From: a virus | IMG/VR virus record: IMGVR_UViG_3300005618_000021 | Span: 1 to 55,129 of that record | DNA: 55,129 nucleotides | Reading direction: 5' to 3' (one strand) | In this document: positions 20,691-39,508 of the stretch, piece by piece | Position numbering within the stretch: position 1 is the stretch's first letter | How the letters are laid out: every line of letters begins with the position of its first letter | Notes under the pieces: model-generated | The model's input: only the letters and a program-made list of their open reading frames with translations | Databases searched by the model: none | Told to the model about the DNA's origin: nothing | Position numbers and translations under genes: made by a program

Positions 20691-21047
20691 CTAGGTAATT
20701 TCCTGGCAGATTACGCGAGTTGCGAGATCGAGACTGCCGGTTGCTGACGAGACCACCTCGAACGATCGAGTGCTCACCGTGATTCGGTCCGTCGTACGGA
20801 TATCGGTGCCGAGCGCGAAGACGAACGTCCAGAAGATGATGGCTTGCACGGTCACGGCATTCTCACGCTCGATGGGCGTAATCTGCGTTCGCGAGAATGA
20901 GCACATATGCGTGGCAACCACCGTGTAGGTATCCGTGAACCCGCCAGTATTGTCGGCAACCTGGCTCTTGCGCAGGATGGTCGCACTCGCATTGAACGTA
21001 CGCGCAAGTGCTGCTCTGAGCCGGACCGTCGAGCCAGGAATCGCCAT
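20691..21047 (-). CDS. Head closure / head-tail adaptor protein
   Basis: 118 residues. ATILRKSQVADNTGGFTDTYTVVATHMCSFS and the C-terminal ITVSTRSFEVVSSA follow the pattern of SPP1 gp16-like stoppers. Its start overlaps the connector stop. Genes on both sides are head-tail joining proteins. Confidence 0.75.
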   Translation of the reverse strand: MAIPGSTVRLRAALARTFNASATILRKSQVADNTGGFTDTYTVVATHMCSFSRTQITPIERENAVTVQAIIFWTFVFALGTDIRTTDRITVSTRSFEVVSSATGSLDLATRVICQEIT

Positions 21048-21682
21048 TACGTGACGAACCCGCCTCGTCTGAACTGGTCGACAATCAACGCTGTGGAACT
21101 GGGCAGCGTCGTATTACCCATCGTGACCGACAGCTCGGTGCCGATCTTGTAACTCTGCACGCCAGGAATCGCCAGATCACCACCCCCGCCCACACCGGTC
21201 GTCGACTCGGCGACCAGCATGCACAGCTCCCGGATTTGCGCCGGAACGTTGGCGAGCGTGCAATAGCCGAATTGTCCGGTAATCTGAACCGCGTCCTGCC
21301 AGGCGGGGAAGGTATAACGGCCAGTCGTCCAGTTCTTATTAATGCACGTGTACGGCTCATTGTCGAGTGGCGCGTTCCGCGGCCCGAGCCAGTAATCAGT
21401 GGTGACCGTCCACGTCGTCTCGTACACGCCATCGCCATTGGCGTCCGTGGCCAGAGTCGTCACCGAAAGCAGGTCGCCCGTCTCGAGATACCAGTACGCA
21501 TTGCATGCCGTGAAGTAGCGCGTCTCAGGAGCTGCCGTGGTAAAGAACCGGCGACCAAGGGTTCGATCGATCCAACGTGAGGCCGACTGGAGCGCGCGGT
21601 CGAGCATAAAATCCTGTTCGCCCACGGGCACACCTAACCGCTCTCGGAACTCGGCGACGGACGCGTACAGGTTAGCGCTCAT
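21047..21682 (-). CDS. Head-tail connector (gp6/gp15-like)
   Basis: 211 residues. YASVAEFRERLGVPVGEQDFMLDRALQSASRWIDRTLGRRF is the usual helical N-terminus of connector proteins that attach below the portal; later LVAESTTGVGGGG and VTMGNTTLPSSTALIVDQFRR are common in this family. It follows a 30-residue basic peptide gene by a TGATG overlap. Confidence 0.8.
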   Translation of the reverse strand: MSANLYASVAEFRERLGVPVGEQDFMLDRALQSASRWIDRTLGRRFFTTAAPETRYFTACNAYWYLETGDLLSVTTLATDANGDGVYETTWTVTTDYWLGPRNAPLDNEPYTCINKNWTTGRYTFPAWQDAVQITGQFGYCTLANVPAQIRELCMLVAESTTGVGGGGDLAIPGVQSYKIGTELSVTMGNTTLPSSTALIVDQFRRGGFVT

Positions 21683-21774
21683 CAGTAGGGCCGCGGCCTG
21701 GGCTTCGGCTTGGGTCGGGGTTTCGGCATGGGCTTGATCCGCTGTGGCTGAGTCGGGAATCGAACAAGGGTCAT
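21682..21774 (-). CDS. 30-residue Pro/Lys/Arg peptide, coupled on both sides
   Basis: Reads MTLVRFPTQPQRIKP followed by a KPRPKPKPRPRPY tail. ATG 21774 overlaps the aminotransferase stop (ATGA) and its own stop overlaps the connector ATG (TGATG), so it forms an unbroken translational chain. The basic polyproline tail could bind DNA or a structural partner. It may instead serve only to carry ribosomes from the inserted glycan island back to the connector gene. Confidence 0.5.
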   Translation of the reverse strand: MTLVRFPTQPQRIKPMPKPRPKPKPRPRPY

Positions 21775-22919
21775 GCGGGCACCAACTGACGGGCGTGCGC
21801 CCATTCGAGCACGGCGGCTACAACACGCGCACGATCATTGTTTGAGAGCCACCACCCGACCGGGATCGCCACCTCGTGCTCGGCGAACGCATCCACGCCG
21901 GGCAGTGGGCCATTGGGGTAGAAGAAGGCGGGGTGGGTGTCGTTGCGCCTGTGCACGGGACTTGCACTGATACCACGGCTGCTCAGATGATCGATCAATG
22001 ACGCTCGGTCATCGACCAGCACGCAGTACAGCCACCAGGACGAGCCGGGATCCTCAGGAGGCGAGGTGAGGCCCGGCACGTCCTGGAGCGCCTGCGAGTA
22101 CCAGACCGCGTTCTCACGATGCCTGGCCACAAGTTCTTGAACGTGCGGGATGTTGGCTAGCCCAATCGACGCCGCGATGTCGTTCATGTGGTACTTGAAC
22201 CCAACTTCACGAATGTCTTGAGAGCAGCGAAAGTCCGCGGATGAGGTGCGGTCGAGGCCGTACCAGCGCAAGAGCCGAGCGCGCTCGTACTGGTGCTCGG
22301 GGACCATGAGCGCGCCGCCATCTCCAGTGGTCAAATGCTTGATTGCCTGAAAGGACCACGCCACGTAGTCGCCGCGGTTGTTCGGATCGACGAACAGGTT
22401 GTGTGCGGCGTCCTGAATGACGGGCAGCAGCGGAACTATTTGCTTGACTGGTGCGCTGTCAATCGCCTGGCGGAGGGCCGCATAGTCACATGAGCGCCCC
22501 GCCCAGTCCACGGCCATGACGGCTCTAGTTCGGTGCGTAATCTTGTGGAGCACATCGGTCGGATCGATCAAGCCCGTGATTGGGTCGACGTCGGCCCAGA
22601 CAATCTTGGCACCACGATTGACGATGACCCCGTTCGTGGCCGTACACGTCATCGGCGTGGTGATCACTTCGCTGCCGAGTCCGACACCACACAGATGCAA
22701 GGCCAGGTCGAGCGCCGACGTACAAGAATTGAGCGCTAGTGGAGAAAGGGATGGTGGTGGCATCCCCACTAACTGCCCGAAGGCTTGCTCGAACTCCTGC
22801 ACGCGCGGCCCCTCGCCGAGATAAGAGCGTCCGCTCTCATCGGGAGTCAGCGTAGCGACAACCCGTTCTTTCGCTTCTGGTGCAACGAACGGACGGAACA
22901 AATCGATCACTGTGGCCAT
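21771..22919 (-). CDS. DegT/DnrJ/EryC1/StrS sugar aminotransferase
   Basis: 382 residues. PLP-fold landmarks: NSCTSALDLALHL near residue 65, VDPITGLIDP, AVDWAGRSCD, VIQDAAHNL (PLP-binding Asp) and WSFQAIKHLTTGDGG, whose Lys194 is the Schiff-base residue. Family members transfer an amino group from Glu or Gln to a keto group on a nucleotide sugar. It is the last gene of the second glycan island and follows the GNAT gene, a pairing that would make an N-acylated amino sugar. Confidence 0.9.
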   Translation of the reverse strand: MATVIDLFRPFVAPEAKERVVATLTPDESGRSYLGEGPRVQEFEQAFGQLVGMPPPSLSPLALNSCTSALDLALHLCGVGLGSEVITTPMTCTATNGVIVNRGAKIVWADVDPITGLIDPTDVLHKITHRTRAVMAVDWAGRSCDYAALRQAIDSAPVKQIVPLLPVIQDAAHNLFVDPNNRGDYVAWSFQAIKHLTTGDGGALMVPEHQYERARLLRWYGLDRTSSADFRCSQDIREVGFKYHMNDIAASIGLANIPHVQELVARHRENAVWYSQALQDVPGLTSPPEDPGSSWWLYCVLVDDRASLIDHLSSRGISASPVHRRNDTHPAFFYPNGPLPGVDAFAEHEVAIPVGWWLSNNDRARVVAAVLEWAHARQLVPA

Positions 22920-23308
22920 CTCCGGTAACCCGACTTCGCCTGAAACCCGATCTCTTCGTAAAACGACTGAGCGAGCGACGTGGACAACAGGTCAATCCTT
23001 GCCTTCGGAAACTCCTGCGCTACCGCATCGACCAACGCTCGACCTATCCCCTGGAACCGCGCATCGGTCGCCACGGCGAGCTCTGTCACGTACGAACACA
23101 CGTCGCCATCACTCAGGACGCGAATGAACCCCACGACCTTGTGCTCGGTGACCGCCACAAAGGCACAGCCCGTCTCTGCGGCCTCATTCAGCACGTCCTG
23201 CGAGGGAATCGCGTTCTCCTGCCAACCCGTGGACAACAACAGGTCGCGCACGGCAGCATCGTGCTCCTCTTCGTACTGCTGCACCACGTACACCACCGCA
23301 ACACTCAT
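22907..23308 (-). CDS. GNAT-family N-acetyltransferase
   Basis: 133 residues from ATG 23308, coupled to the glycosyltransferase stop. The GNAT core is present: CAFVAVTEHKVVGFIRVLSDG, then YVTELAVATDARFQGIGRALVDAVA (acetyl-CoA loop Q-x-x-G-I-G-x-A), then SFYEEIGF. Expected to acetylate an amine with acetyl-CoA. Position next to an aminotransferase suggests an amino-sugar nucleotide as substrate; antibiotic or protein acetylation is an alternative. Confidence 0.8.
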   Translation of the reverse strand: MSVAVVYVVQQYEEEHDAAVRDLLLSTGWQENAIPSQDVLNEAAETGCAFVAVTEHKVVGFIRVLSDGDVCSYVTELAVATDARFQGIGRALVDAVAQEFPKARIDLLSTSLAQSFYEEIGFQAKSGYRRWPQ

Positions 23309-24033
23309 ACGATCACCTCGGCCAAGCTGCGCCGCTCTGCGTACCACGTTGGACTGTAGATGCCCTGGTAGCCGGGATATGTCTCACGCCCGTGCTGCAT
23401 GGCCTTGTTCATCGCATTGAGTCGCGCGTAGTTCCGTCGATTGCGCTGAAGAAAATACTCCTGGCCGAGCCAGCGGTAGTGCAGCAGCCTCAGTGGATCA
23501 CTGCCATCGTCAGACACGGCACCCTCGACCTCGGCCGTATGTTTGCCCGTTGCCCATCGGACCTCGAGCGCGGGATCGAAGATGCAGACCTTCGAGTACG
23601 CATCGGCCTGAACCCCTGACTGAATCTCGTCGTAGATCTGACCCAGGCCAGTCGGCGGGTGGTCGGCCATCATGCTGTAGCCCGTCACGGTCGGGTAGTT
23701 CACGCCCGCCTGACGCAGCTCGACCAATCGCTCAGTCATCCGTGGGTGGTAGAGGATCTCGTCGGCGTCGGCCCAAACCACCCAGTCGGCATGCCCACGA
23801 GCCTCTCTGTAACGCTCCTGAGCGAACGCTACGAATGCAACGTCGTCCAGGTCGCTCGGGCCATAAGGACGCACCTCTGCCCCTTCCCTGCGCGCCAGCG
23901 TGGCCGTCCCGTCGTCCGACCCCAGATCGCAGTAGACGATGACCCGATCGCAGAACTCGCGATAGGCTCTAACCCAGTAGCGAATCAGCGGCGCTTCGTT
24001 ATAAGCCAGGGTCATTGCCCAGCACGTGGTCAC
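23305..24033 (-). CDS. Family-2-type glycosyltransferase
   Basis: 242 residues from GTG 24033 (GTGA overlap with the upstream gene). MTLAYNEAPLIRYWVRAYREFCDRVIVYCDLGSDDGT is the GT2 nucleotide-binding start, and DWVVWADADEILYHP carries the DxD motif near residue 85. The C-terminal HYRWLGQEYFLQRNRRNYARLN segment is typical of the related glycosyltransferase-2-like group. Cytoplasmic; donor and acceptor unknown. Confidence 0.85.
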   Translation of the reverse strand: MTTCWAMTLAYNEAPLIRYWVRAYREFCDRVIVYCDLGSDDGTATLARREGAEVRPYGPSDLDDVAFVAFAQERYREARGHADWVVWADADEILYHPRMTERLVELRQAGVNYPTVTGYSMMADHPPTGLGQIYDEIQSGVQADAYSKVCIFDPALEVRWATGKHTAEVEGAVSDDGSDPLRLLHYRWLGQEYFLQRNRRNYARLNAMNKAMQHGRETYPGYQGIYSPTWYAERRSLAEVIV

Positions 24034-24812
24034 ACGCGCCTCATGAAGAAGTCGGGGATGCGCCATGACTCGGGCGTCATGCCCGCGTAGCGATCGACGT
24101 CGAGCCGCATGCCATGATTCCACGCGTCGAGCAGAAAGCCCACGTCGAGCGGCACGGTGCCGCAGATACCGTTCGGGAACTCGGACTGCACGAGATTGAC
24201 CGTAGGAACCACGAGCCGAGAGCGCGCCCAGGTCCGCATCAATCGGGCATCCGTTTCGTCCTGCCAGCACCGTGAGCCGCGCTCCTCGAGTTGACTCGGC
24301 GAGTTAGCCTGCACGCGCGCGACCATGCGCTTGACGAAGTCGGTGCGATAAATGGTGCCGAGCACCTCCCATGGATAGCCCCAGTCACCCATGGCCCCGA
24401 CAACTGGCCAGGTCAAACTCTCGAGTGGTGGCTGCTGCATACCGTTGCCAAACATGTCACGCCTGATGTGATCGCCAAGTCGCAGCGACGTGCCAATCAC
24501 ATCAACTGGCATGGCAGAGGCATACACCACGTCCGTCAGCACCACGTCGTCACAGCCGAACATCGTGTAGTCCGTGTCGCCGAGCAGTGACTCGAGATCG
24601 GTCCGGAAGTCCTGCTCATGACAGAACTCGACTTGGGAAAACTCGGTTTCGACCTGGGCGTATGCGTCGGCAAACCACTGCGGCTGTGACTGCACCAACA
24701 CCTTGACCAACGCTGGCTCAGTGCAATGCTTGAAAAACGAGGTCAGATAACCATGTAACTGGAGCGGGCGGTCCTTGCTAAAGCAGATGACCTGAAGGTT
24801 AGGGTCGGGCAT
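24030..24812 (-). CDS. GT-A-like glycosyltransferase
   Basis: 260 residues. LQVICFSKDRPLQLHGYLTSFFKH opens like family-2 enzymes acting on short acceptors, and YTMFGCDDVVLTD near residue 85 replaces the canonical DxD with CDD. Later WPVVGAMGDWGYPWEV and NGICGTVP are not familiar. It overlaps FkbM by 14 bases and the next GT by four. I am confident of the fold class, less of activity. Confidence 0.7.
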   Translation of the reverse strand: MPDPNLQVICFSKDRPLQLHGYLTSFFKHCTEPALVKVLVQSQPQWFADAYAQVETEFSQVEFCHEQDFRTDLESLLGDTDYTMFGCDDVVLTDVVYASAMPVDVIGTSLRLGDHIRRDMFGNGMQQPPLESLTWPVVGAMGDWGYPWEVLGTIYRTDFVKRMVARVQANSPSQLEERGSRCWQDETDARLMRTWARSRLVVPTVNLVQSEFPNGICGTVPLDVGFLLDAWNHGMRLDVDRYAGMTPESWRIPDFFMRRV

Positions 24813-25437
24813 AAAGTGCGTCTGCGAACCCCATCATCTGGCTGCCCACGTAGGCATCCTGAATCGCCACGCGATCGAAGCCGAACCCGCCGAGGTACTC
24901 GTCCATATGCGGCACCAGGACACAGCCCTCGTACATCTCCTCGTGGTTCACCTCGGTATAGATCCAGCGCAAGCTTGGCATCACTGACGCCATGCCGCGT
25001 AGAACGTGCAGTTCGGCGCCCTCCACGTCCAGGTTGGCCATGTCGAACGCTGGCGATTCGCCGTGCTGCTCAAGCAACATATCGACCGTGGTCGTCATAT
25101 CCAGTTGCCTACCGATCTCAGGCATCGACGGATAGAAGTCGAGATGCCGTTTGAGCGGCAGAATTGACGACGCCATCGAGAACGTCGTCAGCCGTAAGGT
25201 CACCGGCTCGTCATTGACATCACTGACCGTGGCTTGTACGGCACGCTGGCCAGGAAATGACGCGACCTGTTCCTGAAGAGCCGGCATCAGGGCTTGATTC
25301 GCCTCGATCCAGAACACGCGCTCTACGCCCGCAGCCTGATAATCAGGTGCCTCTTCGGCAAGGTGGGCACCTACATGAAGGACCGCTTTCGGCTTCACGC
25401 CATAACCGTCCACCAATTGCGCCATAGCGATCAGCAT
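24799..25437 (-). CDS. FkbM-family methyltransferase
   Basis: 212 residues. KAVLHVGAHLAEEAPDYQAAGVERVFWIEANQAL is the SAM-binding start, MLLEQHG...FDMANLDVEGAELHVLRGM is the conserved FkbM central motif and YTEVNHEEMYEG follows. FkbM enzymes O-methylate sugars or polyketides. Lying between two sugar-modifying genes, it probably methylates a glycan or nucleotide sugar. Confidence 0.85.
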   Translation of the reverse strand: MLIAMAQLVDGYGVKPKAVLHVGAHLAEEAPDYQAAGVERVFWIEANQALMPALQEQVASFPGQRAVQATVSDVNDEPVTLRLTTFSMASSILPLKRHLDFYPSMPEIGRQLDMTTTVDMLLEQHGESPAFDMANLDVEGAELHVLRGMASVMPSLRWIYTEVNHEEMYEGCVLVPHMDEYLGGFGFDRVAIQDAYVGSQMMGFADALYARP

Positions 25438-26580
25438 TCAGTACGCCCTGAGAAAATCGCTCATGACCTCGCCCACGTACGCCGCGCCATCCTCGTCGTC
25501 GAATGATGACAGCCCAATATAAAACCCGTCCGTATGGATACGCTCCGCGCCTGGCAATCCGCTCGCGACAATCTTCGGGTGTTCACGCGCCACTGGTTGC
25601 TCCGCGAAGTTGCCCGCCACAATCGGTCGCGTCTCGACCCCGTGCGCATCGAGGTGACGGCACAAGTCGCGTTTCCAGAATGGGGCGTCTGGTGCGACCA
25701 TCAGCGGAAACCCATGCCACGCCGGCTCACACTCGGGCAGCACGGTGATCCCGCGCAGATACTGCGGCCACGCCTTGCTCGTGACTTCGGTCAGCCGATC
25801 GTAGTTTCGGGCTCGAGCCGCCCGAAAACCTTCGATCCGGGTCATCTGCACGTTGCCAAACGCGCCCTGAAGTTCTGTTGGCCGCACATTCAGGCCCCAC
25901 GTCGGGAACCAGAACGGGAAATCTGCCTTCGGCTCCCAGCCGTGCGATCGCCACAACCGATAGTCGCGTGCGTCCAATGGCGCGTCCGTGACCACCATGC
26001 CACCCTCCATCGTGTTCAGCAGGTGGCTGAAGAAAAAGCTAAACGCCGCGGCCTGGCCTAACGTCCCAACATGCTCCCCATGCCAGCGAGCCCCCATCGC
26101 CTCACAGCAATCCTCAAGGATCGGAACATCGACGTCGTCGAGATCGTCCAGGTTGCCAACGTTCCCCAGCACATGCACCAGAAATAGCGCCTGGGTGTGA
26201 ATGTTGGTCTTGTGCCGCATATCAGCAAAATCCATTTGCAGCGTGGCCGGATCAACGTCGACCAGACGCACCGTATATCCAGCCATGATGCACGACCAGA
26301 TCTGCGTCGGCCACGTCACCGCGGGTACCAGGATCTCGTCGCCTGGCTGGGCTGGCCCTAGACCGTGAGCAATAAGCAGATCTGCGCTCGAGCCGCTGTT
26401 GACCATGATCGCGTGCTGGCGCCCAACGTACGCTGCGAACGACCGCTCAAACTCACGAACAGCGGGGCCGCACGTGGTCTGGCCGGCGCGCAGCGTCATC
26501 ATGACCGCGGCCATCTCTTCGTCGCCATAACTCACGTGAGCGAGCGGGTAGCGTTTGGTCTTGGGCTCGCTCGCTACCAT
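25438..26580 (-). CDS. DegT-family PLP enzyme with catalytic His (ColD/3-dehydratase-like)
   Basis: 380 residues. Fold landmarks are MVNSGSSADLLIAHGLG, LVPAVTWPTQIWSCIMAG, VDVDPATLQMD, ILEDCCEAMGARW and AFSFFFSHLLNTMEGG. In ordinary aminotransferases that last motif has Lys four residues before [GM]EGG; here the residue is His186, just as ColD (GDP-4-keto-6-deoxymannose 3-dehydratase) has His188. Such enzymes remove a hydroxyl from C3 of a keto sugar with PLP and no Schiff base to the enzyme. The substrate may be a nucleotide hexose or heptose. Confidence 0.8.
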   Translation of the reverse strand: MVASEPKTKRYPLAHVSYGDEEMAAVMMTLRAGQTTCGPAVREFERSFAAYVGRQHAIMVNSGSSADLLIAHGLGPAQPGDEILVPAVTWPTQIWSCIMAGYTVRLVDVDPATLQMDFADMRHKTNIHTQALFLVHVLGNVGNLDDLDDVDVPILEDCCEAMGARWHGEHVGTLGQAAAFSFFFSHLLNTMEGGMVVTDAPLDARDYRLWRSHGWEPKADFPFWFPTWGLNVRPTELQGAFGNVQMTRIEGFRAARARNYDRLTEVTSKAWPQYLRGITVLPECEPAWHGFPLMVAPDAPFWKRDLCRHLDAHGVETRPIVAGNFAEQPVAREHPKIVASGLPGAERIHTDGFYIGLSSFDDEDGAAYVGEVMSDFLRAY

Positions 26581-26581
26581 G

Positions 26582-27412
26582 TCAGAACCTCACGAGTTGA
26601 ATCGGCTCGGGATACATGTCCGGCAGGTCGAGCTCGACCTGCAACGGCTTGTCGATGAACTGGTAGACCGGCCCACCCAGATCTTTCTCAGCGATGCCCG
26701 TCACACCCCTCACAAAATTCCAGATGATCACGCCATGCTCGCACTTGCTAGCCACATGCTCCGCGTACCAGTCACGCGTCTCCATGTCGAACTCTGAGAA
26801 GGCATAGGCACTGAACAGGAAGCGGGGCGCTTCGCTCGCATCCAGCGCCAGCGCGACGCCCAGCGGATCGAGGCCGTCCATCGCCTTGATCGGCACCCCC
26901 AACGCCACCGCGAGCCGCTTCTGGATCACGATCGCCTCGGGCAAGTCGATAATGGTGTAGCGGTCAATGATCACGTCAGGAAACAACTGGCTCAGCCGGT
27001 CAACGTAGAGCGCCAGGCCACCGTAACCGCCGCCGATCTCGATCACGTGCATGCGTGTCATACCGACCTCGGCCGCATGCGTCCATAGCCGTAGCGCCTG
27101 ACTCAAATAACGCATATTCGAGGGCGAGCACGTTAGATCTACCTCGCGGAACGTGTCCTGAACGGGCTTGCCGTAGCGGTCGTTCTCCGCGGCAATGACC
27201 GGCAAGAGCCGCACTGCATCCGACCAGTACGCGGAATACTCCCTCTGGATGTGGTCGAGAAACCTGATGGCCTGGTAATGGTCGACGTGCTCCAGAACGC
27301 GCTGGTAGCGCAGATCTGACTTGAACGTCCACTCGTGCGGCTTCTGTGCCGCGGCCTCGTGCAACACATCACGATAGCTGGTGTAATTGCTGGTTGGCGT
27401 GGGTGCGATCAT
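26582..27412 (-). CDS. Putative sugar O-methyltransferase
   Basis: 276 residues. MHVIEIGGGYGGLALYVDRL near residue 120 is the SAM-binding glycine loop; YTIIDLPEAIVIQKRLAV supplies the acidic strand, and FLFSAYAFSEFDMETRDWYAEHV belongs to the putative sugar O-methyltransferase family seen in O-antigen clusters. Coupled to GT2 by ATGA. It probably caps or decorates a sugar made by neighbouring enzymes. Confidence 0.8.
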   Translation of the reverse strand: MIAPTPTSNYTSYRDVLHEAAAQKPHEWTFKSDLRYQRVLEHVDHYQAIRFLDHIQREYSAYWSDAVRLLPVIAAENDRYGKPVQDTFREVDLTCSPSNMRYLSQALRLWTHAAEVGMTRMHVIEIGGGYGGLALYVDRLSQLFPDVIIDRYTIIDLPEAIVIQKRLAVALGVPIKAMDGLDPLGVALALDASEAPRFLFSAYAFSEFDMETRDWYAEHVASKCEHGVIIWNFVRGVTGIAEKDLGGPVYQFIDKPLQVELDLPDMYPEPIQLVRF

Positions 27413-27999
27413 CCTGGCCGTGCCCTTGCCACAAACTCGTTGATCCAGATCGCTTTCTCCACGCCACCGAAGTTCTCGACCGTGCTCGCCACGTAATCAA
27501 AATCTCCCGTGTAGTCGCACGTCCAACTGCCGATCTTGTCGGGCACGTTCGGCGTGACCAGGCAATGACCGCCAATGTGGTTCCGTTCCATGTTGCCCGC
27601 GAAGTCCCAGAAATCGAGGCCGAAGTACGAGTGGAACCGGAACAGCAGTGCGTACTTATCTGGGTAGACTGTCACGCTCCTGCGCATCAGCGCGACCGCG
27701 TCAGGCGTCCACACGTCATCGTCGTCGTTGCAGTGAATGTAGTCACCCTTCGCGTGGCTGATGCCGTAGTCAAGTTGGTGATGGCCAAAACAATGATGGC
27801 CGGCGTCGAGGCTCAGGTATCGAAACCGCGAGCCGTAGCTCTGGACCCACGCCTCAACCCGCGGCAACGGTCCGTCGTGCACGTCACCGACCACGATCAC
27901 CTCGTCCGCAGGATCGAGTTGGCCCGCGAGACTCGACAGGCAACGCGTCAACGGCCGGTCATCCCGATGCGTCGGGACAATGAACGTGAACGATGGCAC
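27409..27999 (-). CDS. Family-2 glycosyltransferase
   Basis: 196 residues from GTG 27999, one base after the preceding stop. SFTFIVPTHRDDRPLTRCLSSL and HAKGDYIHCNDDDDVWTPDAV (metal-binding acidic cluster near residue 95) mark a GT-A enzyme. It is short for the family and lacks a C-terminal extension. First gene of the second glycan island, immediately after capsid-associated genes. Confidence 0.85.
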   Translation of the reverse strand: MPSFTFIVPTHRDDRPLTRCLSSLAGQLDPADEVIVVGDVHDGPLPRVEAWVQSYGSRFRYLSLDAGHHCFGHHQLDYGISHAKGDYIHCNDDDDVWTPDAVALMRRSVTVYPDKYALLFRFHSYFGLDFWDFAGNMERNHIGGHCLVTPNVPDKIGSWTCDYTGDFDYVASTVENFGGVEKAIWINEFVARARPG

Positions 28000-28000
28000 C

Positions 28001-28246
28001 TTATTTCTTGTCAGACGCCTTCGACTCGTCCTCAGGCTCAGCCGGTTTGGCCTCACCTTTGCCGAGCGTGATCACGCCGGCTGACTCGCGCCACTGGGCG
28101 TTACGCTGGTTCCAGACGTAGATTTTGCCGCCGCTGTCGACCACATAGTCGCGGTTCGCAGCCTGCGACAAGTCCTGATCGGTCGACGCGTCGGCAACGT
28201 ACTGCCCGTTCGCGTCGTACAGACTCACGATGTACCCGTCAGCCAT
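28001..28246 (-). CDS. Small capsid-region protein with charged tail
   Basis: 81 residues. DGYIVSLYDANGQYVADAST and YVVDSGGKIYVWNQRN form a small beta domain; the last 25 residues are Lys/Glu/Pro-rich and probably disordered. ATG 28246 overlaps the upstream gene. Located after the major capsid genes, it may be a head decoration protein. Inference only. Confidence 0.6.
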   Translation of the reverse strand: MADGYIVSLYDANGQYVADASTDQDLSQAANRDYVVDSGGKIYVWNQRNAQWRESAGVITLGKGEAKPAEPEDESKASDKK

Positions 28247-28451: not shown

Positions 28452-28791
28452 CGTTGTCACCATCGAGCATGAACCAGATCGCTTCAGCAACCTCCTCTGG
28501 ATCGACATCGGTTCCTCGTAAGTCCCAGCGCAACCCCCCGTCATACCAAGCCGTAAGATCGAGCCCAGGAAACTCACTACACACGCGCGCCATCAAGGTA
28601 AGTGCGTCCAAACCACCCCGGCGCCGTACCACAAAGTCAACGTAGAACGAATTCGCCTCGACCTGGGCCTTGGTGGGATTCTCGTGCCCCTCACAACTAC
28701 TGGACGTGGAAATACTCGGAATGCAATTCAAAGCCTCAACTAACGACCGAATGCCTTCGTCGATCTGGATTGCTTCTCGCGCGGCAGTCAT
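28429..28791 (-). CDS. Conserved unknown with SSCEGH motif
   Basis: 120 residues. IRSLVEALNCIPSISTSSSCEGHENP resembles a small protein family whose signature is SSCEGH/SCSGH, followed here by FYVDFVVRR and a C-terminal acidic helix. The Cys and His may bind a metal. Start overlaps the HNH endonuclease stop (ATGA). Function unknown. Confidence 0.65.
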   Translation of the reverse strand: MTAAREAIQIDEGIRSLVEALNCIPSISTSSSCEGHENPTKAQVEANSFYVDFVVRRRGGLDALTLMARVCSEFPGLDLTAWYDGGLRWDLRGTDVDPEEVAEAIWFMLDGDNDGETVED

Positions 28792-29699
28792 GACGGCACC
28801 TGCGGCAGCGCACCAAACAAGCGCTCATACTCGGCCAATCTCTCGGCCATAGACAGTTCGCGTCGTTTGCGATCCGCCGCAGTCTTCCACGTGTGGTGCG
28901 TCGGATCGAGGATTTGCAGGTTGTCCAACCGGTTGTCGGTTTTGTTCTGATTCTTGTGGTCTACCTGCTCACGCGTATCGAGCACCCGCCCTAGCGACTG
29001 CTCCACAATCCAGCGGTGCTCAAGGACATGACCATTACGGCTAGCCTTGGGATGCGTTGGCTCGTAGATCGTGTAGTAGCCCTGAGCGTTTAGGAGAACC
29101 GGCCGTCCATTATGTTCGCGACCCGTTGGCCGCTTGATGGAAGCGAGTGCCCCATGCGCTCTGCAACAATACTTCCGCGTATCACTTGGTCGGCGCGGTA
29201 ATACCTTAGGGCAACCGTCTAATGCGCATGCCACCATGCGCCTGACCTTCTTGAATGACTCGTAGGCACACGCCTTCGAGTGAAACCGACGGTTCTGCTT
29301 TATATAGGCAGGTTGACGGTAGAACAACCTACCGCACCCCTCGCACGGGATGGTGTCACCCGTACGCGGTCTGCGGGGGTGAGCGTATCCCCCGCGCTCC
29401 TGACGCTGGCGCATGTTCCATTTAGCTCGACACGCCATTGAATGGAACCAAGGGCGCTCAGCATTCTTCTCATTGACGTACCGCACGACCTCAACGCTGC
29501 ATTCAGCACAGGGCCTTGCTTCAATCAGCCCGCGATATCTATTCGGCTCGCGAGAGGCGCTAGCGCCCTGCGGCATGTGTGGCCGCTGACAGTCCCTATC
29601 GCAGAACCATCTGGCTCCGCGCGCTTGAGACAAATAACGAGTCAGCAGTTTTCCACATGTCGCACAGGGCCTAGTCGCCTTTTCTCCTCGAACTGGCAT
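28788..29699 (-). CDS. HNH homing endonuclease with several zinc fingers
   Basis: 303 residues. Four Cys-x2-Cys...Cys modules lie in order (PCATCGK...CDRDC; PCAECS...MACR; PCEGCGR...KAC; CALDGCPK...CCRAH), followed by the HNH core HVLEHRWIVEQSLGRVLDTREQVDHKNQNKTDNRLDNLQIL near residue 240. It lies between the major capsid gene and small head genes, a classical target for free-standing endonucleases. The start is within an RBS-masking hairpin at 29699-29725. Confidence 0.9.
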   Translation of the reverse strand: MPVRGEKATRPCATCGKLLTRYLSQARGARWFCDRDCQRPHMPQGASASREPNRYRGLIEARPCAECSVEVVRYVNEKNAERPWFHSMACRAKWNMRQRQERGGYAHPRRPRTGDTIPCEGCGRLFYRQPAYIKQNRRFHSKACAYESFKKVRRMVACALDGCPKVLPRRPSDTRKYCCRAHGALASIKRPTGREHNGRPVLLNAQGYYTIYEPTHPKASRNGHVLEHRWIVEQSLGRVLDTREQVDHKNQNKTDNRLDNLQILDPTHHTWKTAADRKRRELSMAERLAEYERLFGALPQVPS

Positions 29700-29738: not shown

Positions 29739-31064
29739 TCACAATCCAGTAACTTTTGCGAAGACCGCTGGTCTCCACACAACGAATGCCACCCGGAGTT
29801 CGGCAAGAATTGTCTGCATATTACGTACGAACTGATCGTTCACTGTCCCCACTCTGACCGCGCCTTGTTCGCGATCGTAGAGGGTCGCGCCCTGCTGGAA
29901 GTCTCCGACCAGGCCCGTGCCCGTGGTGATATTCGGATCTTCGACGACCGGAATGCCCCACAGCGTGGGTGCACCCATACCCGACGGCGGCCCGAACAGA
30001 TACGAGCCTGGCGTCGCGGTCGATGCCGATTCACGTGCCAGACGGATCGTTTGCCAGTCAGTCGGATTGAGCGCATACGCTGATGCTCGACCCAGACCCG
30101 TCCAGTTGACGAGCGTGCGGCCCTTGTACAGCGCGTCGATCTGACTGTCAGTGCCCTTGCCGACAACGCCAATGCTCGCCGTGTTCAGGATGCCGGTCAG
30201 GTTTTCACCGGTGCCGTCACCAGACACGACCTGCGACTGGAGTTTCTGCTGGAGGCCGAACAGAAGCCGGCCATCGATGATGCCACGGATCGCCGGCGCA
30301 TCAGCCAGCATCCGGTTGGTGACCGGAATCCAGTGTGCCAGCGTGCGCACCGTAGCCGTCTGGGTGCTGTACGCCAGCGCAGACTCTGGCTTGAGGCCCG
30401 TGCCCGTGCCAGTAGCAAGTGCTGATGCCGTGAAGCCCGTTGCCTCAGCCACGAACGCCGCGGCATTGGTGAACGTATCCTCACGAACGTACTCGATAGT
30501 GTCGCTCGAGGTCTGGTTGCGTGAGATCAGATCGATGAAGTTCAGCGGCGCCTGGAGCAAGTCGATGAACCCCGGCTGATGGTCCTCGAGCACGAACGGA
30601 CCGCCAGACGTGGACGAGCCGCCACGTAACAGCGTCTTCTGCTCTGCCCATTGCAGCATCGACGTTCCCTCGGCCATCGTCACGCCGATCTCGACGCGAC
30701 TCAGGTTCGAATCGAACATCTTGCGCTGCTTGGCCGCGCGATAGTCCATGCTCGCCAGAAACTGACGACCTGGGGAAATGCGCTTGCCCTCGGCATCCTG
30801 CTCGTCACCCTCGTACGTTGGGCGTGCGCCCGGAGCTGGCTTGCTCACGCGCTCATAGGACGACAGAATGCGTGCTCGTCGCTGCTCGGCATTCTCGATA
30901 TCGTTCAGTTTGGTTTCGAGCGTGGTGATTTCGTCGAGCAGTTTCACCTGCTCTTCGCGTTCCTCGTTCGGCATCTCCGTGTCGAGATACTTCTTTTCAC
31001 GCAGGTCGGCCTGCTCAAGTCGAGTTTTGAGCTCTGCCTGAGCCTCCGCAATAGTCATAGACAT
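29739..31064 (-). CDS. HK97-fold major capsid protein
   Basis: 441 residues. The N-terminal 100 residues are a charged coiled coil (LREKKYLDTEMPNEEREEQVKLLDEITTLETKLND), the delta scaffold removed by the protease. The mature body contains PFVLEDHQPGFIDLLQAPLNFIDLI, IEYVREDTFTNAAAFVAEATGFTAS and LAHWIPVTNRMLADAPAIRGIIDGRL, all standard HK97 landmarks. Follows protease by six bases. Confidence 0.95.
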   Translation of the reverse strand: MSMTIAEAQAELKTRLEQADLREKKYLDTEMPNEEREEQVKLLDEITTLETKLNDIENAEQRRARILSSYERVSKPAPGARPTYEGDEQDAEGKRISPGRQFLASMDYRAAKQRKMFDSNLSRVEIGVTMAEGTSMLQWAEQKTLLRGGSSTSGGPFVLEDHQPGFIDLLQAPLNFIDLISRNQTSSDTIEYVREDTFTNAAAFVAEATGFTASALATGTGTGLKPESALAYSTQTATVRTLAHWIPVTNRMLADAPAIRGIIDGRLLFGLQQKLQSQVVSGDGTGENLTGILNTASIGVVGKGTDSQIDALYKGRTLVNWTGLGRASAYALNPTDWQTIRLARESASTATPGSYLFGPPSGMGAPTLWGIPVVEDPNITTGTGLVGDFQQGATLYDREQGAVRVGTVNDQFVRNMQTILAELRVAFVVWRPAVFAKVTGL

Positions 31065-32017: not shown

Positions 32018-32239
32018 ATGGATACATGCCCAAACTGTCTCCACGACAACGACATGCACTACGCGCCTGATGGACCAGGAACCCGAGTCGTTTGCGTCGA
32101 CGGCTATCGCGATCCTCTGTGGGGGACTACAACCGACTGCGATTGTGTCATGGTCCCGCCGTGCTGCATCGCAGACCGATGCCTTGGCCTTAGTGCCAGA
32201 CACACCTGCTGCATCTGTTTAGGCAGTAGCGAGGACTAG
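32018..32239 (+). CDS. Rightward Cys-rich small protein
   Basis: 73 residues reading against the operon. CPNCLHDNDMHYAPDGPGTRVVC and later DCDC, PPCC, CCIC give many paired cysteines, a likely zinc-binding module of a kind seen in short phage proteins beginning C-x2-C-x-H-D. The 3' end overlaps the end of the glycosyltransferase gene by 21 bases. A leftward frame over the same bases lacks such order, so this strand is preferred. Modest confidence. Confidence 0.45.
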   Translation: MDTCPNCLHDNDMHYAPDGPGTRVVCVDGYRDPLWGTTTDCDCVMVPPCCIADRCLGLSARHTCCICLGSSED

Positions 32240-33340
32240 TCGCGGCTTCGCGCGGAACCGCTCAATTGCATCGAGCCACGCCAGTGGCCAGTTCTGCCAA
32301 TTCTTCTCTAGCGTGTATTTCTCCATCACGGTGCGCCGCGCGTTCCGACTGATCGTCCTGCGCAACTCGGCATCTTCGATCAGCCGGCTCAACGCCTCGA
32401 CGATCTGCTCTGCTGTCTCGGCAACCAGCGCGTCCTCGCCATCGGTCACTTCCGCACCATAAAGCGTCGGGCTGACAACACACGCCACACCGGCCAGCGT
32501 CATCTCGTACCACTTGATGCACGTCTTCGACGTGTTGAACACCAGCGGCGCGACGATGCAACAACCAATGTCGAGGTTGATCAGCGCTCGCGGGTACTCT
32601 TCCAGGGACAGCCACGGCAGCGAGTGGCGCCGTTCGTCTGGGATCGAGTGGTACAGCGAATCGCTCATGTGACCCTGAATCACGAACTCCACGTGCGGGT
32701 AGCGCTTGGCGATGATCGTCCACGCCTCGGCGAGTGGCTTCATGTCGGCCTCTTCGCGCGCCCCGCCAGCCCAACCAACCGTCAACTTGCCTTCGAGCTC
32801 GGGAATGCGCCCAATACCACGGAGCGTGGCCTTGAACCACCTGGCGTCAATGCTGTTCGGGATGTGGTAGACCGGCGTATCCGCGGGCGCGTACTGGCGC
32901 GCAATCGTCGCCAGACGCCGACTCGACACCGTGACGCCGTCGCACACACTCAGCATCTTGATGCGTTCGTTGCGTTCCCACTCGAGCTGTTTCTCACCTT
33001 TGGCGGCTTCCGCGGGAAAGACGCGCATCTGACGATCGACGATCCTGGGCGAGAAGATGTCGTCATCGATCTCGTACAGCCAGGCTAGACCGGCTTTATG
33101 AATGACGTTGACCCATGCCTCGCCAATTCCTTCGACTGGCCAGACGATGCGCGGCGTAATGACAGCGTCATACCGGCCCTGCGCAACCAGCGGCAGCACC
33201 TTGTCCGAATCGTTCTTGTGGCACCACTCGGCGATGTACCCACGCTGCTCGAGTTCTCGGAACGGCTGCCAAATTCTCCAAAGTGAGCAACCTGTCTCGT
33301 CGCCGCAGAGCGCGAGAACGCGAGGTGCGCGACCGAGCAC
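32219..33340 (-). CDS. GT-B fold (GT4-like) glycosyltransferase
   Basis: 373 residues from GTG 33340, with GAGGTG close upstream. VLALCGDETGCSLWRIWQPFRELEQRG at the N-terminus, YHIPNSIDARWFK near residue 165, TVGWAGGAREEADMKPLAEAW, then FNTSKTCIKWYEMTLAGVACVVSPTLYG and DALVAETAEQIVEAL are the order found in GT4-type enzymes. It stands alone between a minor head gene cluster and the prohead protease, with its own gap upstream. Confidence 0.88.
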   Translation of the reverse strand: MLGRAPRVLALCGDETGCSLWRIWQPFRELEQRGYIAEWCHKNDSDKVLPLVAQGRYDAVITPRIVWPVEGIGEAWVNVIHKAGLAWLYEIDDDIFSPRIVDRQMRVFPAEAAKGEKQLEWERNERIKMLSVCDGVTVSSRRLATIARQYAPADTPVYHIPNSIDARWFKATLRGIGRIPELEGKLTVGWAGGAREEADMKPLAEAWTIIAKRYPHVEFVIQGHMSDSLYHSIPDERRHSLPWLSLEEYPRALINLDIGCCIVAPLVFNTSKTCIKWYEMTLAGVACVVSPTLYGAEVTDGEDALVAETAEQIVEALSRLIEDAELRRTISRNARRTVMEKYTLEKNWQNWPLAWLDAIERFRAKPRLVLATA

Positions 33341-36304: not shown

Positions 36305-36535
36305 GTGATACCTCGTTGGTTCCATTGGATTTGGGCCGTCGTGAACGGTTACTTCTGGTTACCGTGCCGCATCTGCGGCCGGATGTTCGGCGGCCATGAA
36401 AGCGTCGGTCAGACTGTCACGGAAGACGGTACCCTGTGGCCCTCGTGCAGCCTGCACCCGTGGAAGACGGGCCGCGACCCATGGTCAATCGACGCGGCAT
36501 CTGCCCGCCGGGAATGGGCTAACCAGAACCACTAA
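36305..36535 (+). CDS. Rightward small Cys/Trp protein
   Basis: 76 residues. FHWIWAVVNGYFWLPCRICGRMFGGHES...WPSCSLHPWK is a recognisable type of small phage protein with Cys-x2-Cys...Cys-x2-H and many Trp residues. It lies between the divergent portal start and the convergent transaldolase end (four-base overlap), directly at a border of the heptose cassette. Probably zinc-binding; role unknown. Confidence 0.6.
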   Translation: MIPRWFHWIWAVVNGYFWLPCRICGRMFGGHESVGQTVTEDGTLWPSCSLHPWKTGRDPWSIDAASARREWANQNH

Positions 36536-37155
36536 GTCGTCTTTACTAGTGCGCTCGCGTCCCGCAAGAACTGACTAACCGCCTCGTCGGTCTTGGGATG
36601 TTGGCACAGCAGCGGTAAAAACTGCGGCGGCACGGTCACGATATCCGCGCCCGCCTGAATCGCTTCGTTCACGTCGATCATCTGGCGGATGCTGCCGACG
36701 ATGATCTCGGTCGGGCACTTCCAGCGGTCGAAGGTTTCGCGCACCTGGCGCACCACCGTCGCCGCGTCCTGGCCAGTGTCGCGAATGCGGCCCCAGAACA
36801 GACTGACGTAGTTGGCACGAGCGTTCGCGGCCATAATCGCCTGGTTGTAGGACATGCACGCCGTGACGTTGACTTTGACGTTGTCGCGGCGCAATCGGTG
36901 AACGATCGATAGTTCGTCCCAACCGATCGGCACCTTGAACACGAGTCCAGCGTAACCGTAGTCATTGAAGTCCTCGGTCACCTGAACACTCAGCGGGATA
37001 GTGTCCCCGTAACGACGCAGGAGCCTGATGATGTCCTCGATCGAGCCTTGATCCTTGGCCATGATCGACGGATTCGTGGTCACGCCACGGACGACACCAC
37101 GCTGGAGCGCCGCCTCAATGTCCTCCAAGTTGGCCGAGTCGATGAAGAGCTTCAT
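36532..37155 (-). CDS. talC: Transaldolase / fructose-6-phosphate aldolase-like
   Basis: 207 residues from ATG 37155, overlapping gmhA (ATGA). MKLFIDSANLEDIEAALQRG and GVTTNPSIMAKD start the barrel; GLVFKVPIGWDE contains the Schiff-base Lys; NVTACMSYNQAIMAANA and EIIVGSIRQM follow. This is the short TalC type also carried by cyanophages. Next to gmhA its likely service here is to supply sedoheptulose 7-phosphate. It could instead feed the pentose phosphate pathway during infection. Confidence 0.88.
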   Translation of the reverse strand: MKLFIDSANLEDIEAALQRGVVRGVTTNPSIMAKDQGSIEDIIRLLRRYGDTIPLSVQVTEDFNDYGYAGLVFKVPIGWDELSIVHRLRRDNVKVNVTACMSYNQAIMAANARANYVSLFWGRIRDTGQDAATVVRQVRETFDRWKCPTEIIVGSIRQMIDVNEAIQAGADIVTVPPQFLPLLCQHPKTDEAVSQFLRDASALVKTT

Positions 37156-37712
37156 TGCAAGGCCGGATGCCAGACGAGGAGATGGCACAACACGCTCTGG
37201 AACGATTCGGCGTGTGGCGTCACGTGCTCCTCATTCACTGTTGGCACCACCACATAAGCGTTCGCAACGCGTTGGATGTAGCCCTTCTCTCTGCCCACGA
37301 TCCCCGCAATCCACGCTCCTCGAACTAGCGCGTAGTCAAGCGCAGGAATCAGGTTTGCACTGGTCGTACTGGTCCCGCCACCGACCGACAATGCAACCAC
37401 CATGTCATCCGCGCCCAGATGGCTTGTTTTGAGCCAACTGGCGAACACGGTGTGCCAGCCGACATCATTGGTTTGCGCTGTAAGTTCAGCCACGTTGTCG
37501 GTCGGGGCGTACGCTTCGATCCCGGCGATCTTGCGCAGATCGTTGACGAAGTGCGAGGCGTTGGCGGCACTGCCACCATTGCCGAGCACAAACACTCGCC
37601 CGCCCACAGCTTTCGTTTGAGCCAGCAGGCTGGCGCACGCGTCGATCTGGTCGGCGTCGAGCGCTTTCGCGATGGCGGCAACCTCATCCAGGTACGAGAT
37701 CGTGAACGACAT
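37152..37712 (-). CDS. gmhA: Sedoheptulose-7-phosphate isomerase (SIS domain)
   Basis: 186 residues from ATG 37712. VFVLGNGGSAANASHFVNDLRK is the GmhA phosphate-binding motif; TDNVAELTAQTNDVGWHTVFASWLK and ALSVGGGTSTTSANLIPAL are the remaining SIS parts. GmhA turns sedoheptulose 7-phosphate into D-glycero-D-manno-heptose 7-phosphate. Overlaps hddC by 29 bases and talC by four. Confidence 0.88.
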   Translation of the reverse strand: MSFTISYLDEVAAIAKALDADQIDACASLLAQTKAVGGRVFVLGNGGSAANASHFVNDLRKIAGIEAYAPTDNVAELTAQTNDVGWHTVFASWLKTSHLGADDMVVALSVGGGTSTTSANLIPALDYALVRGAWIAGIVGREKGYIQRVANAYVVVPTVNEEHVTPHAESFQSVLCHLLVWHPALQ

Positions 37713-38355
37713 ACCGCCTGAACGCTGCCAACCCCTCGAGCGAGCCGATCTCGTAAACGGGCTCGGTGACTTCGTAGCCAGCGAGTCGGTCTTCGTCTGC
37801 GAGATCCCCAAACACCTCCCCGAGACCTGAACTTACGTGCCGTCTGAATATGTCAGGCTCAAAGAGCGAGAACCCAGCATCACCACAATTGCCGTGACCG
37901 TAGCCGTAGACCGTTTCATCCTCATAGATCACGTTCTTCCGACCAGGGCAACGAACGGCCATCATGGCGTCAGCGTCTCGGTACTGGAACGCTTTGTACG
38001 CCTTCATCAAGTCGTAGAGCGGATACACGTCGCCATACAGCACGCCGAACTGGCTGCCCAGGCGCGGCAACGCCTTCCGAATCGCGCCGGCCGTACCGAG
38101 CAGCTCCGGCCCATCGAACGAATACTCGATCTCAAGCCCGAACTGCTTGCCCGTGCCAACGTGCCCCTTGATCTGCTCGCCGAGATAGCCGGTGCACAGC
38201 ACGACTCGCTCGATGCCCTGACTGGCAATGAGTTCTAGTTGCCAGTCGATGAACGGTTTCCCGTCCACCTCAACCAGCGACTTGGGCACCGTGTCGGTAA
38301 GTGGTTTCAGTCGCGTCCCGAGCCCGCCGCACAGGATCGCCACGGTCAGGCTCAC
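37684..38355 (-). CDS. hddC: Heptose-1-phosphate nucleotidyltransferase, HddC-like
   Basis: 223 residues. LTVAILCGGLGTRLKPLTDTVPKSLVEVDGKPFIDWQLELI is the nucleotidyltransferase signature, LLGTAGAIRKALPRL the sugar-phosphate region and VLYGDVYPLYDL the metal-binding Asp. Between gmhA and a GHMP kinase it best fits HddC, which makes GDP-D-glycero-alpha-D-manno-heptose. Exact nucleotide is inferred. Confidence 0.82.
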   Translation of the reverse strand: MSLTVAILCGGLGTRLKPLTDTVPKSLVEVDGKPFIDWQLELIASQGIERVVLCTGYLGEQIKGHVGTGKQFGLEIEYSFDGPELLGTAGAIRKALPRLGSQFGVLYGDVYPLYDLMKAYKAFQYRDADAMMAVRCPGRKNVIYEDETVYGYGHGNCGDAGFSLFEPDIFRRHVSSGLGEVFGDLADEDRLAGYEVTEPVYEIGSLEGLAAFRRYVVHDLVPG

Positions 38356-39296
38356 GACGCAACAACTCGCGCGCCGTCGAAGTCAAACCGGAACCGCACC
38401 TCGCGCAACCCCGCCTCACACATTTCTCGCCGGAGTGGTCCCTTCTGTTCGGCGTAAAACAACAAGAACCCGCCGCCGCCAGCACCAACGAGTTTCCCGC
38501 CGAGCGCGCCGTTCTCCAGCCCAAGCGTGCGCCATCGCTGGATATCCTCACTCGCTGGTGTGCGCTGATGCTTGGTGGCCCACTGTCCGTTCATCTGATC
38601 GGCGAAGAAGTCGAGCTCGCCGCTCTCAAGTGCTCGGACCGCCAACATGGCCACAAGGGCATCCGCCCCACCATATGGCATTGTGCTGGCGCCAAGGATC
38701 TCCGCGGCCTTTCGCGTGTGCCCGGTGAAGAACAACAGCAAGTTGTCTTCTAGGTCCGCCAACGTATCGGCTCGTAGGTTCAGGCCAGCAGCACACACCT
38801 GACCGTCTTGCATGAACGACAGCATCGTAATGCCACCGAGCGCCGCGATGTACTGATCTTGCTTACCAATGGGCTGCTCCAGCGCGTCGATCTCGATCTG
38901 ACACGCTTCCTCGGCGAGTTGCTGCGGCGAGCACGTCTGACGCTGGTATGTATGGAGCGCGAGCAGCAGCGCGACCGTAAAACTCGACGACGAACCGAGT
39001 CCGGTGCCGGCTGGAATATCGGCGTGGCTGCAAATCTCCAGGCCGCGGCCATCAACGCCAACCAGACGCATCGTCTCGCGCACGATCGGGTGCTCGACGT
39101 GCTCGGCGTCCTTGACGCGTTCCATCTTGCTGTACTTGACGATCAGGTCGTCGACGAACGTCTCATGAATCGTGATCGTGACGTACTTGTCGATTGCCGC
39201 CGCGAGACAATGGCCGCCGAACTTCTCGTAGTAGGCAGGGATGTCCGTGCCACCACCACCAAGCGTGATCCTGAGCGGCGCTCTGGCAATGATCAC
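38352..39296 (-). CDS. hddA: GHMP heptose kinase, HddA-like
   Basis: 314 residues. N-terminal IARAPLRITLGGGGTDIPAYYEKFGG, central ADIPAGTGLGSSSSFTVALLLAL (ATP loop) and C-terminal KLVGAGGGGFLLFYAE are the three GHMP motifs, and the first is that of D-glycero-D-manno-heptose 7-phosphate kinase. In the GDP-heptose route it makes the 1,7-bisphosphate. The phosphatase GmhB is not present, so the host may supply it. Confidence 0.88.
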   Translation of the reverse strand: MIIARAPLRITLGGGGTDIPAYYEKFGGHCLAAAIDKYVTITIHETFVDDLIVKYSKMERVKDAEHVEHPIVRETMRLVGVDGRGLEICSHADIPAGTGLGSSSSFTVALLLALHTYQRQTCSPQQLAEEACQIEIDALEQPIGKQDQYIAALGGITMLSFMQDGQVCAAGLNLRADTLADLEDNLLLFFTGHTRKAAEILGASTMPYGGADALVAMLAVRALESGELDFFADQMNGQWATKHQRTPASEDIQRWRTLGLENGALGGKLVGAGGGGFLLFYAEQKGPLRREMCEAGLREVRFRFDFDGARVVAS

Positions 39297-39508
39297 GTAT
39301 CAACGCCGACTGGATCGCGATACTTGATCTCTCGTGCGGCGCCGGCTAGCACCGCTGCGAGTTTGAACGCGCCATCGGCGGTCATGCAGATACTGAAAGT
39401 CTGACCTTCACTGACCATCCGTAAGCACACCGTGTCGTCATCAACATCGCGCATGACCGCTAGCACGCCGCCTGGGAGCCGCGCCGACCAGTGCCGTGAC
39501 GTTGTCAC
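39293..39508 (-). CDS. Small protein inside heptose cassette
   Basis: 71 residues from GTG 39508 (GTGA overlap with the SDR). VLAVMRDVDDDTVCLRMVSEGQTFSICMTADGAFKLAAVLAGAAREIK is a compact beta-beta-alpha domain. Coupled to hddA by ATGA. The gene at 40205-40480 has a similar position after a sugar enzyme. Function unknown. Confidence 0.55.
   Translation of the reverse strand: MTTSRHWSARLPGGVLAVMRDVDDDTVCLRMVSEGQTFSICMTADGAFKLAAVLAGAAREIKYRDPVGVDT

Follow-up and report, generated by a model that had tools for sequence, protein, structure and literature searches.

An island of eight genes for making and attaching sugars lies among the head genes of an uncultivated phage, and it is probably a virion-glycosylation cassette. 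The phage is represented by IMG/VR record IMGVR_UViG_3300005618_000021, all 55,129 bases of which were analysed (hereafter, the window); the island occupies its minus strand, with the major capsid gene on one side and the gene in the head–tail connector position on the other. The best explanation of the gene content is that an O-methylated 3-deoxy and/or N-acylated amino sugar would be made and placed on late virion proteins by cytoplasmic glycosylation. Virion proteins are the favoured target because of (i) the position of the island in the head block, (ii) the coupling of its genes, (iii) the soluble nature of its enzymes, and (iv) the precedent of the mycobacteriophages. Phage virion glycosylation is itself already known; what is novel is the composition of the cassette, its placement, and its exchange between phages.

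The island is embedded in the head gene block

A preliminary description of this DNA, made from its letters alone, reported eight coupled genes at 21771–27999 among the head genes. The coordinates are correct and the junctions tight: eight open reading frames (ORFs) run from a GTG at 27999 to a stop at 21771, and none of the seven internal junctions has an overlap longer than 14 bases or a gap of more than 1 base. In island order, with the flanking genes, the features are:

29739–31064, minus strand: major capsid protein (PF05065, 9.9e-41), upstream of the slot
28001–28246, minus strand: gp28001, a small protein between capsid gene and cassette, conserved in close relatives; its stop abuts GT2a
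27409–27999, minus strand: GT2a, GT2-family glycosyltransferase (PF00535, 1.5e-14, 54.7 bits, cut-off 23.3); first cassette gene and conserved upstream end
26582–27412, minus strand: OMT, putative sugar O-methyltransferase (TIGR04371, 1.6e-6, 27.9 bits against a curated cut-off of 44)
25438–26580, minus strand: very probable ColD-type nucleotide-sugar 3-dehydratase, dependent on pyridoxal phosphate (PLP); best PDB match ColD (2gms, 7.4e-54, full-length)
24799–25437, minus strand: FkbM-family methyltransferase (PF05050, 1.4e-9, 38.7 bits)
24030–24812, minus strand: U24030, predicted GT-A-fold glycosyltransferase, by fold only
23305–24033, minus strand: GT2b, GT2-family glycosyltransferase (GT2_4; PF13704, 3.3e-12, 47.2 bits, cut-off 27.5)
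22907–23308, minus strand: GNAT N-acyltransferase (PF13508, 1.2e-13, 51.6 bits)
21771–22919, minus strand: DegT-family sugar aminotransferase (PF01041, 2.7e-65); last cassette gene and conserved downstream end
21047–21682, minus strand: head–tail connector-position gene, downstream of the slot; assigned by position and conserved there in relatives

The start of GT2b was placed at a GTG overlapping the preceding stop, and that of GNAT from an ATGA overlap. The connector-position gene matched no Pfam family. Among the family labels first given to the island, those of GT2a, GT2b, both DegT enzymes, GNAT and FkbM are upheld by Pfam, while the gene at 24030 belongs to no sequence family and the sugar O-methyltransferase scores below its cut-off.

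The island is joined to the head genes at its upstream end and, in relatives, at its downstream end too. The stop of gp28001 precedes the GTG of GT2a by 1 base, and the downstream end is coupled in relatives, where DegT overlaps the connector gene (contigs L007 and L015). Between 20600 and 32300 there is no excess of promoter-like sites (1, with 2.9 expected) or of terminator-like sites (8, with 7.6 expected). A foreign composition of the island was considered and rejected: overall GC and third-position GC (GC3) of its genes are level with those of the structural genes. The island is not a chance arrangement, since its gene order is kept in relatives and its ratios of non-synonymous to synonymous substitution (dN/dS) are 0.07–0.24.

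By eye, the window also contains three homing-endonuclease-like ORFs (HNH- or GIY-YIG-like), at 28788–29699, 9454–10254 and 51329–51841, two of which adjoin glycan-gene positions. L005 has a homologue of the first after its capsid gene.

Glycosyltransferases

U24030 matched nothing in Pfam, PHROG or NCBIfam. An AlphaFold model built from eight sequences (pLDDT 83.4, pTM 0.87) resembles GT-A enzymes in Foldseek, with TarP as the top match (2.6e-7) and SpsA at 8.8e-7, and VIA-align gives Z scores of up to 13.2 over 169 residues at 3.2 Å. By its modelled fold alone, U24030 is a GT-A-type glycosyltransferase. Two further glycosyltransferase genes lie outside the island:

32219–33340, minus strand: separate glycosyltransferase (gene label GT32), upstream of the prohead protease (PF13524, 3.4e-10, 40.5 bits, cut-off 25)
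8747–9457, minus strand: putative GT2-like gene in the tail region, a weak match (PF00535, 20.9 bits, below the cut-off of 23.3; phrog_1574, 9.6e-15)

Of the 32 contigs that show at least 2.5 kb (all within L002–L049, several of them near-identical), 31 have a GT32 homologue upstream of the capsid gene, making it almost universal in the wider phage family. The homologue of the 8747 gene sits between connector genes in L016 and L017. The initial count of five phage glycosyltransferases stands, with four of them well supported and the gene at 8747 a weak candidate only. Phage-encoded glycosyltransferases, one of the features expected of a phage virion glycosylation system, are present in the window.

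Sugar-tailoring enzymes

The two DegT-family (PF01041) enzymes of the island score 221 and 231 bits, confirming the membership originally proposed for both; they differ in the residue that defines their chemistry. Firstly, the ORF at 25438–26580 very probably makes a 3-deoxy sugar as a ColD-type 3-dehydratase and is no aminotransferase, because a His replaces the Schiff-base Lys, ColD is its best match, and all homologues agree. This His aligns with the catalytic His of ColD and is kept (motif FSFFFSH) in 11 of 11 collected homologues. Two of the three alignments involve ColD entries that differ at the catalytic position; these are presumably engineered mutants. Against the NCBIfam RfbH model the ORF reaches 200.6 bits, short of the cut-off of 423; this disqualifies it as an RfbH equivalog but not as a relative of ColD.

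Secondly, the last cassette gene has both the fold family and the Schiff-base Lys of a DegT sugar aminotransferase. Its best PDB matches are 4zwv, 4xau and 4zas (labelled CalS13), with the catalytic Lys aligned; these are antibiotic-sugar aminotransferases. The Lys motif (SFQAIKHLTT in the window) is found in 20 of 22 homologues, the other two being unmatched by the search pattern.

In 18 of the 22 DegT loci, a GNAT gene lies directly upstream (within 500 bases). Two GNAT subfamilies alternate in this place, one found in 10 loci and the other in 8. This coupling of aminotransferase and acyltransferase suggests an N-acylated amino sugar. OMT gave no PDB match under an E-value of 0.1. Taken by enzyme family, the encoding of a deoxy, amino, acetylated and methylated sugar set by the phage, within its head operon, is supported.

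Gene content of the slot in related phages

A capsid search gave 59 IMG/VR loci, and more were added through protein scans with the ColD-type enzyme, U24030, DegT and HddA. Loci on the same contig were counted once (L003=L062=L086=L095, L005=L061=L083, L007=L100, L015=L091=L097, L020=L092=L164, L063=L085, L089=L103). Besides the window, 19 contigs, including near-duplicates and cut contigs, have GT2a, if not more of the cassette, in the slot that follows the capsid gene (L003, L005–L020, L064 and L102).

The content of the slot varies. L003 and L005 have the full cassette, to which L005 adds a GT2-like gene and a methyltransferase-like ORF. L015, L019 and L020 have GT2a, GT2b, OMT, ColD, U24030 and DegT, and L015 and L019 also an alternative GNAT; L006, L007, L012 and L102 have GT2a, a short-chain dehydrogenase/reductase (SDR), the alternative GNAT and DegT; L013 has GT2a, the alternative GNAT and DegT. 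A distant GT2a is found in L008, L009, L016 and L017, next to ORFs that in L008, L009 and L016 look methyltransferase-like by eye (that of L016, when tested, matched PF08241 at 9e-5). In L030 and L033 other genes, among them a GT2 and a methyltransferase, occupy the slot (~4.7 kb), and near-identical contigs share the L033 set. In L023, L025, L036, L037 and L038 the slot measures only 209–614 bases. Most of the remaining capsid loci fall outside this classification, through a contig end or an unrecognised connector gene.

By this comparison, the first and last cassette genes are constant and the middle is exchangeable. The preliminary description, in which the island interrupts the head genes, had the location right; rather than an interruption in one phage, the island is a locus that a family of phages conserves and exchanges.

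Three side observations concern these loci. Between U24030 and GT2b, the glycan cassette of L005 includes an ORF (L005:7266–7994) that by eye is DNA-methyltransferase-like. A lone ORF of 173 amino acids, without a Pfam match, occupies the capsid–connector slot of L048 (751–1272). The DegT aminotransferase has at least 98 IMG/VR relatives (L104–L167 among them), many of 38–50% identity and without the rest of the cassette.

Exchange between phage backbones and selection

A second lineage consists of L087, L088, L089 and L093, to which L063 belongs by its backbone. Where in view (L063, L088, L093), the second-lineage cassette lies ~1.05–1.2 kb past the connector gene. The connector gene of L063 is 44–47% identical to those of L088 and L093 and 23–33% to others, and the connector tree groups the three with support of 100/100. 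In contrast, U24030 of L063 is 66–68% identical to its homologues in the window, L003, L005 and L084, versus 45–48% to those of the second lineage. Trees in which the second-lineage rows are held together are rejected by U24030 (approximately unbiased test, p-AU 0.0063) and by DegT (p-AU 0.0379), values that are inexact because of the long L063 branch in the connector tree and of long rows in the U24030 and DegT trees. The simplest reading of these affinities and trees is that L063 carries a window-lineage cassette in a second-lineage backbone, and that the cassette therefore passed as a unit between phage backbones.

Against L003, dN/dS is 0.082–0.241 for seven cassette genes (GT2b was skipped, owing to a stop in the matched stretch) and 0.066–0.248 for nine further head- and tail-block genes, including GT32. 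Against L094, the closest relative in view, it is 0.072–0.151 for three cassette genes and 0.023–0.063 for five structural genes (the ColD row was dropped as a cross-match to the L094 DegT gene). As judged from these ratios, the cassette is under purifying selection, which is somewhat looser than that on its neighbours in the closer comparison.

The variable content of the slot and the homing-endonuclease-like genes nearby would also fit an assembly of unrelated selfish or metabolic genes, gathered at a tolerant spot and yielding no joint product. This is very unlikely given the constant ends, the tie between DegT and two GNAT subfamilies that replace each other, the exchange as a unit, and the purifying selection.

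Target of the glycan

The reading that we prefer, virion glycosylation, would work as follows. The cassette would be read within the late head operon, as the overlapping genes and the two ends in relatives suggest. The chemistry would take place in the cytoplasm of the host, starting from a nucleotide 4-keto-6-deoxy-sugar that the host supplies. This sugar would lose its 3-hydroxyl to the ColD-type enzyme; alternatively or in turn, the Lys-bearing DegT enzyme would aminate the sugar and GNAT would N-acylate it. The two methyltransferases would add O-methyl groups, a chemistry predicted from family and active-site residues. GT2a, U24030, GT2b and GT32 would build a short glycan directly on nascent structural proteins. 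With fixed end genes, a variable middle and transfer as a unit, the cassette would be, on the comparison and the trees, a replaceable glycan-type locus.

Several points weigh against this reading. The position of the island proves no target by itself. TarP, the top structural neighbour of U24030, acts on a host surface polymer and is prophage-encoded, and the window record encodes an integrase, so expression from a prophage is possible. At the second-lineage loci L087, L088, L089 and L093 there is no GNAT of either subfamily, and selection on the cassette is the looser one in the L094 comparison. A Ser/Thr/Gly-rich loop insertion in the capsid protein, in what we take to be the HK97 E-loop, was the one segment considered as the acceptor, and was rejected: the Ser/Thr-rich loop is longer in the window's clade, and insertion and cassette do not go together (in L063 only the cassette is found, in L025 only the insertion). 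A recognisable acceptor segment that follows the glycosyltransferases is, however, not known to be obligatory in such systems. The capsid model is of low confidence (pLDDT 71.6, pTM 0.50). Finally, DegT-family enzymes of both kinds require a keto sugar substrate, and no 4,6-dehydratase was recognised in the window.

Two of these points, integrase and TarP, would suit a cassette that remodels the surface of the infected or lysogenic host, masking receptors or excluding superinfection, as in serotype-converting phages. An integrase is found in three of the seven relatives tested as well as in the window, and the ColD and DegT families are typical of lipopolysaccharide and capsule sugars. However, members of the lipid-phosphate sugar transferase families PF02397 and PF00953 and of the flippase family PF01943 are lacking from all ten records searched (some possibly incomplete), and a hydropathy scan of the window cassette, and of 14 related slot regions on their sense strand, found no multi-span membrane protein. 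This argues against lipid-linked assembly of a surface polysaccharide; Gtr serotype-conversion systems have multi-span membrane proteins. Soluble glycosyltransferases could still decorate a lipid-linked intermediate of the host. The cassette also sits in the late head block, and cassette-bearing records of 50.5 and 78.0 kb (possibly incomplete) have no integrase match. On balance, we regard a role at the host surface as unlikely.

Sugars could, alternatively, be destined for modified bases of the phage DNA, resisting restriction; phage glycosyltransferases that glycosylate DNA are described in the available part of PMC12619734. This is extremely unlikely here: none of the ten records (some possibly incomplete) has a member of the thymidylate-synthase/hydroxymethylase family PF00303, which argues against glycosylation of hydroxymethylated bases, and the island lies inside the head block. 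Virion glycosylation, as first proposed, holds as the best-supported role by position, coupling and soluble enzymes, though by sequence alone capsid, fibre and host surface would each be a possible target.

Sugar precursor and a second sugar cassette

The sole PF01370 protein of the window, encoded at 40470, was considered as the 4,6-dehydratase and rejected: it is GalE-like, with STSAVYG where 4,6-dehydratases carry an acidic pair. We therefore infer that the keto-sugar substrate is supplied by the host. The gene belongs to a further group:

36532–41369, minus strand: possible precursor cassette, between terminase and portal genes, encoding a GalE-like epimerase, an SDR, an HddA-like kinase, a sugar-1-phosphate nucleotidyltransferase, a GmhA-like isomerase and an FSA/TalC-type transaldolase

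The GmhA-, HddA-, nucleotidyltransferase- and TalC-like genes all score below the curated equivalog cut-offs (HddA-like, 130 bits, cut-off 600; GmhA-like, 57, cut-off 209; HddC, 75, cut-off 300; the MurU model scores higher, at 111.5). Close homologues of the kinase occur only in L003, L004 and a near-identical fragment, L168, with a distant match in L169. The idea that heptose genes are an obligatory part of the cassette is unsupported, since they are absent from most cassette-bearing relatives (of the 12 related records tested, 2 have an HddA homologue). The 24.8-kb contig L005 and L004, which has HddA, may be two halves of one phage, because their capsid genes are near-identical.

In the Campylobacter jejuni HS:5 pathway, GDP-heptose and a ColD-family C3-dehydratase lead to a GDP-3,6-dideoxy-heptose (available part of PMC10440746). 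By analogy with this pathway, which joins the two, a heptose-derived 3,6-dideoxy sugar is possible in the window phage. A tentative extension, which we put forward as a possibility, is that the slot could be a 'virion glycotype' locus, at which phages exchange whole cassettes as bacteria exchange O-antigen and capsule loci; the coat of the window phage might then bear a heptose-derived 3,6-dideoxy, 4-acylamido, O-methyl sugar, made in part by its own transaldolase, GmhA-like and HddA-like genes.

Host, named phages and other features of the window

A scan of genome contigs for a host gave 11 distant loci (28–30% identity), none of which assigned one. The capsid model matched 12 of 396 genomes from the phylum of genome G013, and the six matches fetched were 26–36% identical. 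Among 50,697 named-phage records, homologues number 19 for DegT, 72 for the ColD-like enzyme, 2 for U24030, 9 for GT32 and 0 for GT2a; a near-identity DNA search with positions 20001–44000 gave no match among named phages. Among the titles and opening abstract lines listed from the open-licence literature we found no phage with this island layout, and no paper combining all search terms on phage GDP-heptose or virion sedoheptulose isomerase.

Two other ORFs of the window stand out. At 4677–6773, a protein of 698 amino acids is built from numerous similar repeats, in which GQDAM and RARDY motifs recur, and has no Pfam family. By eye, the ORF at 49141–50076 combines an unfamiliar N-terminal part with a C-terminal part that resembles a secreted lytic enzyme and begins like a signal peptide; it has no Pfam match.

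Phage virion glycosylation has so far been shown in a few mycobacteriophages. If our reading is true, an uncultivated phage family has a dedicated, exchangeable sugar-synthesis locus in its capsid operon, and a ColD-type 3-deoxy-sugar step has been brought into a block of phage structural genes. It would raise the question of why a changing coat of the particle should be favoured where antibodies are absent.

Comparison with known systems

Among named phages, Streptomyces phage KimJongPhill has a GT32 homologue (24% identity) beside its terminase and portal genes, after a methyltransferase; its set is small, and the stretch read includes neither DegT nor ColD genes. In Flavobacterium phage immuto 2-6A, a GT2 gene adjoins a 36% identical aminotransferase amid glycosyltransferases, a methyltransferase and an epimerase. 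That phage is 160 kb long, however, and in the stretch read the cluster is not between capsid and connector genes.

Biochemical parallels come from bacteria and from viruses of eukaryotes. The island enzyme shares with ColD (GDP-4-keto-6-deoxymannose 3-dehydratase) a full-length match and the catalytic His, and differs in being phage-encoded. As far as the pathway is covered by the source text cited above, C. jejuni HS:5 likewise has a ColD-family C3-dehydratase, and the window adds GmhA-, HddA- and nucleotidyltransferase-like genes; unlike in C. jejuni, neither a 4,6-dehydratase nor GmhB is recognised in the window. In mimivirus (viosamine cluster) and chlorovirus capsid glycosylation, a PLP aminotransferase, an N-acetyltransferase and glycosyltransferases are clustered, and the particle glycan is N-acetylated and O-methylated (available part of PMC4691112). 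The island has the same clustering, a parallel of layout only, with no sequence link claimed. These are viruses of eukaryotes, and the mimivirus cluster, in the same text, has its own 4,6-dehydratase.

A precedent in function is that of mycobacteriophages Che8, Corndog and Myrna, whose virions are glycosylated by phage glycosyltransferases acting on capsid and tail tube proteins (available parts of PMC12363180 and PMC11256854). The result is that of Freeman et al. 2023, as cited in PMC11256854, PMC12363180 and PMC12619734 and repeated in PMC10568470, each seen in part. The parallel drawn at the outset is not one of close kinship: the best named capsid relatives are 30–44% identical, and no close relation to a mycobacteriophage was seen. 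Both systems have phage-encoded glycosyltransferases, and the target proposed here would likewise be capsid and tail proteins. In the Che8-like phage Maravista, the glycosyltransferases are near the 3' end of the genome (PMC11256854, same portion), unlike the island with its place in the head operon. The window phage, known from its genes alone, differs further in combining a predicted 3-dehydratase, aminotransferase, acyltransferase and methyltransferases in an exchangeable set within that operon.

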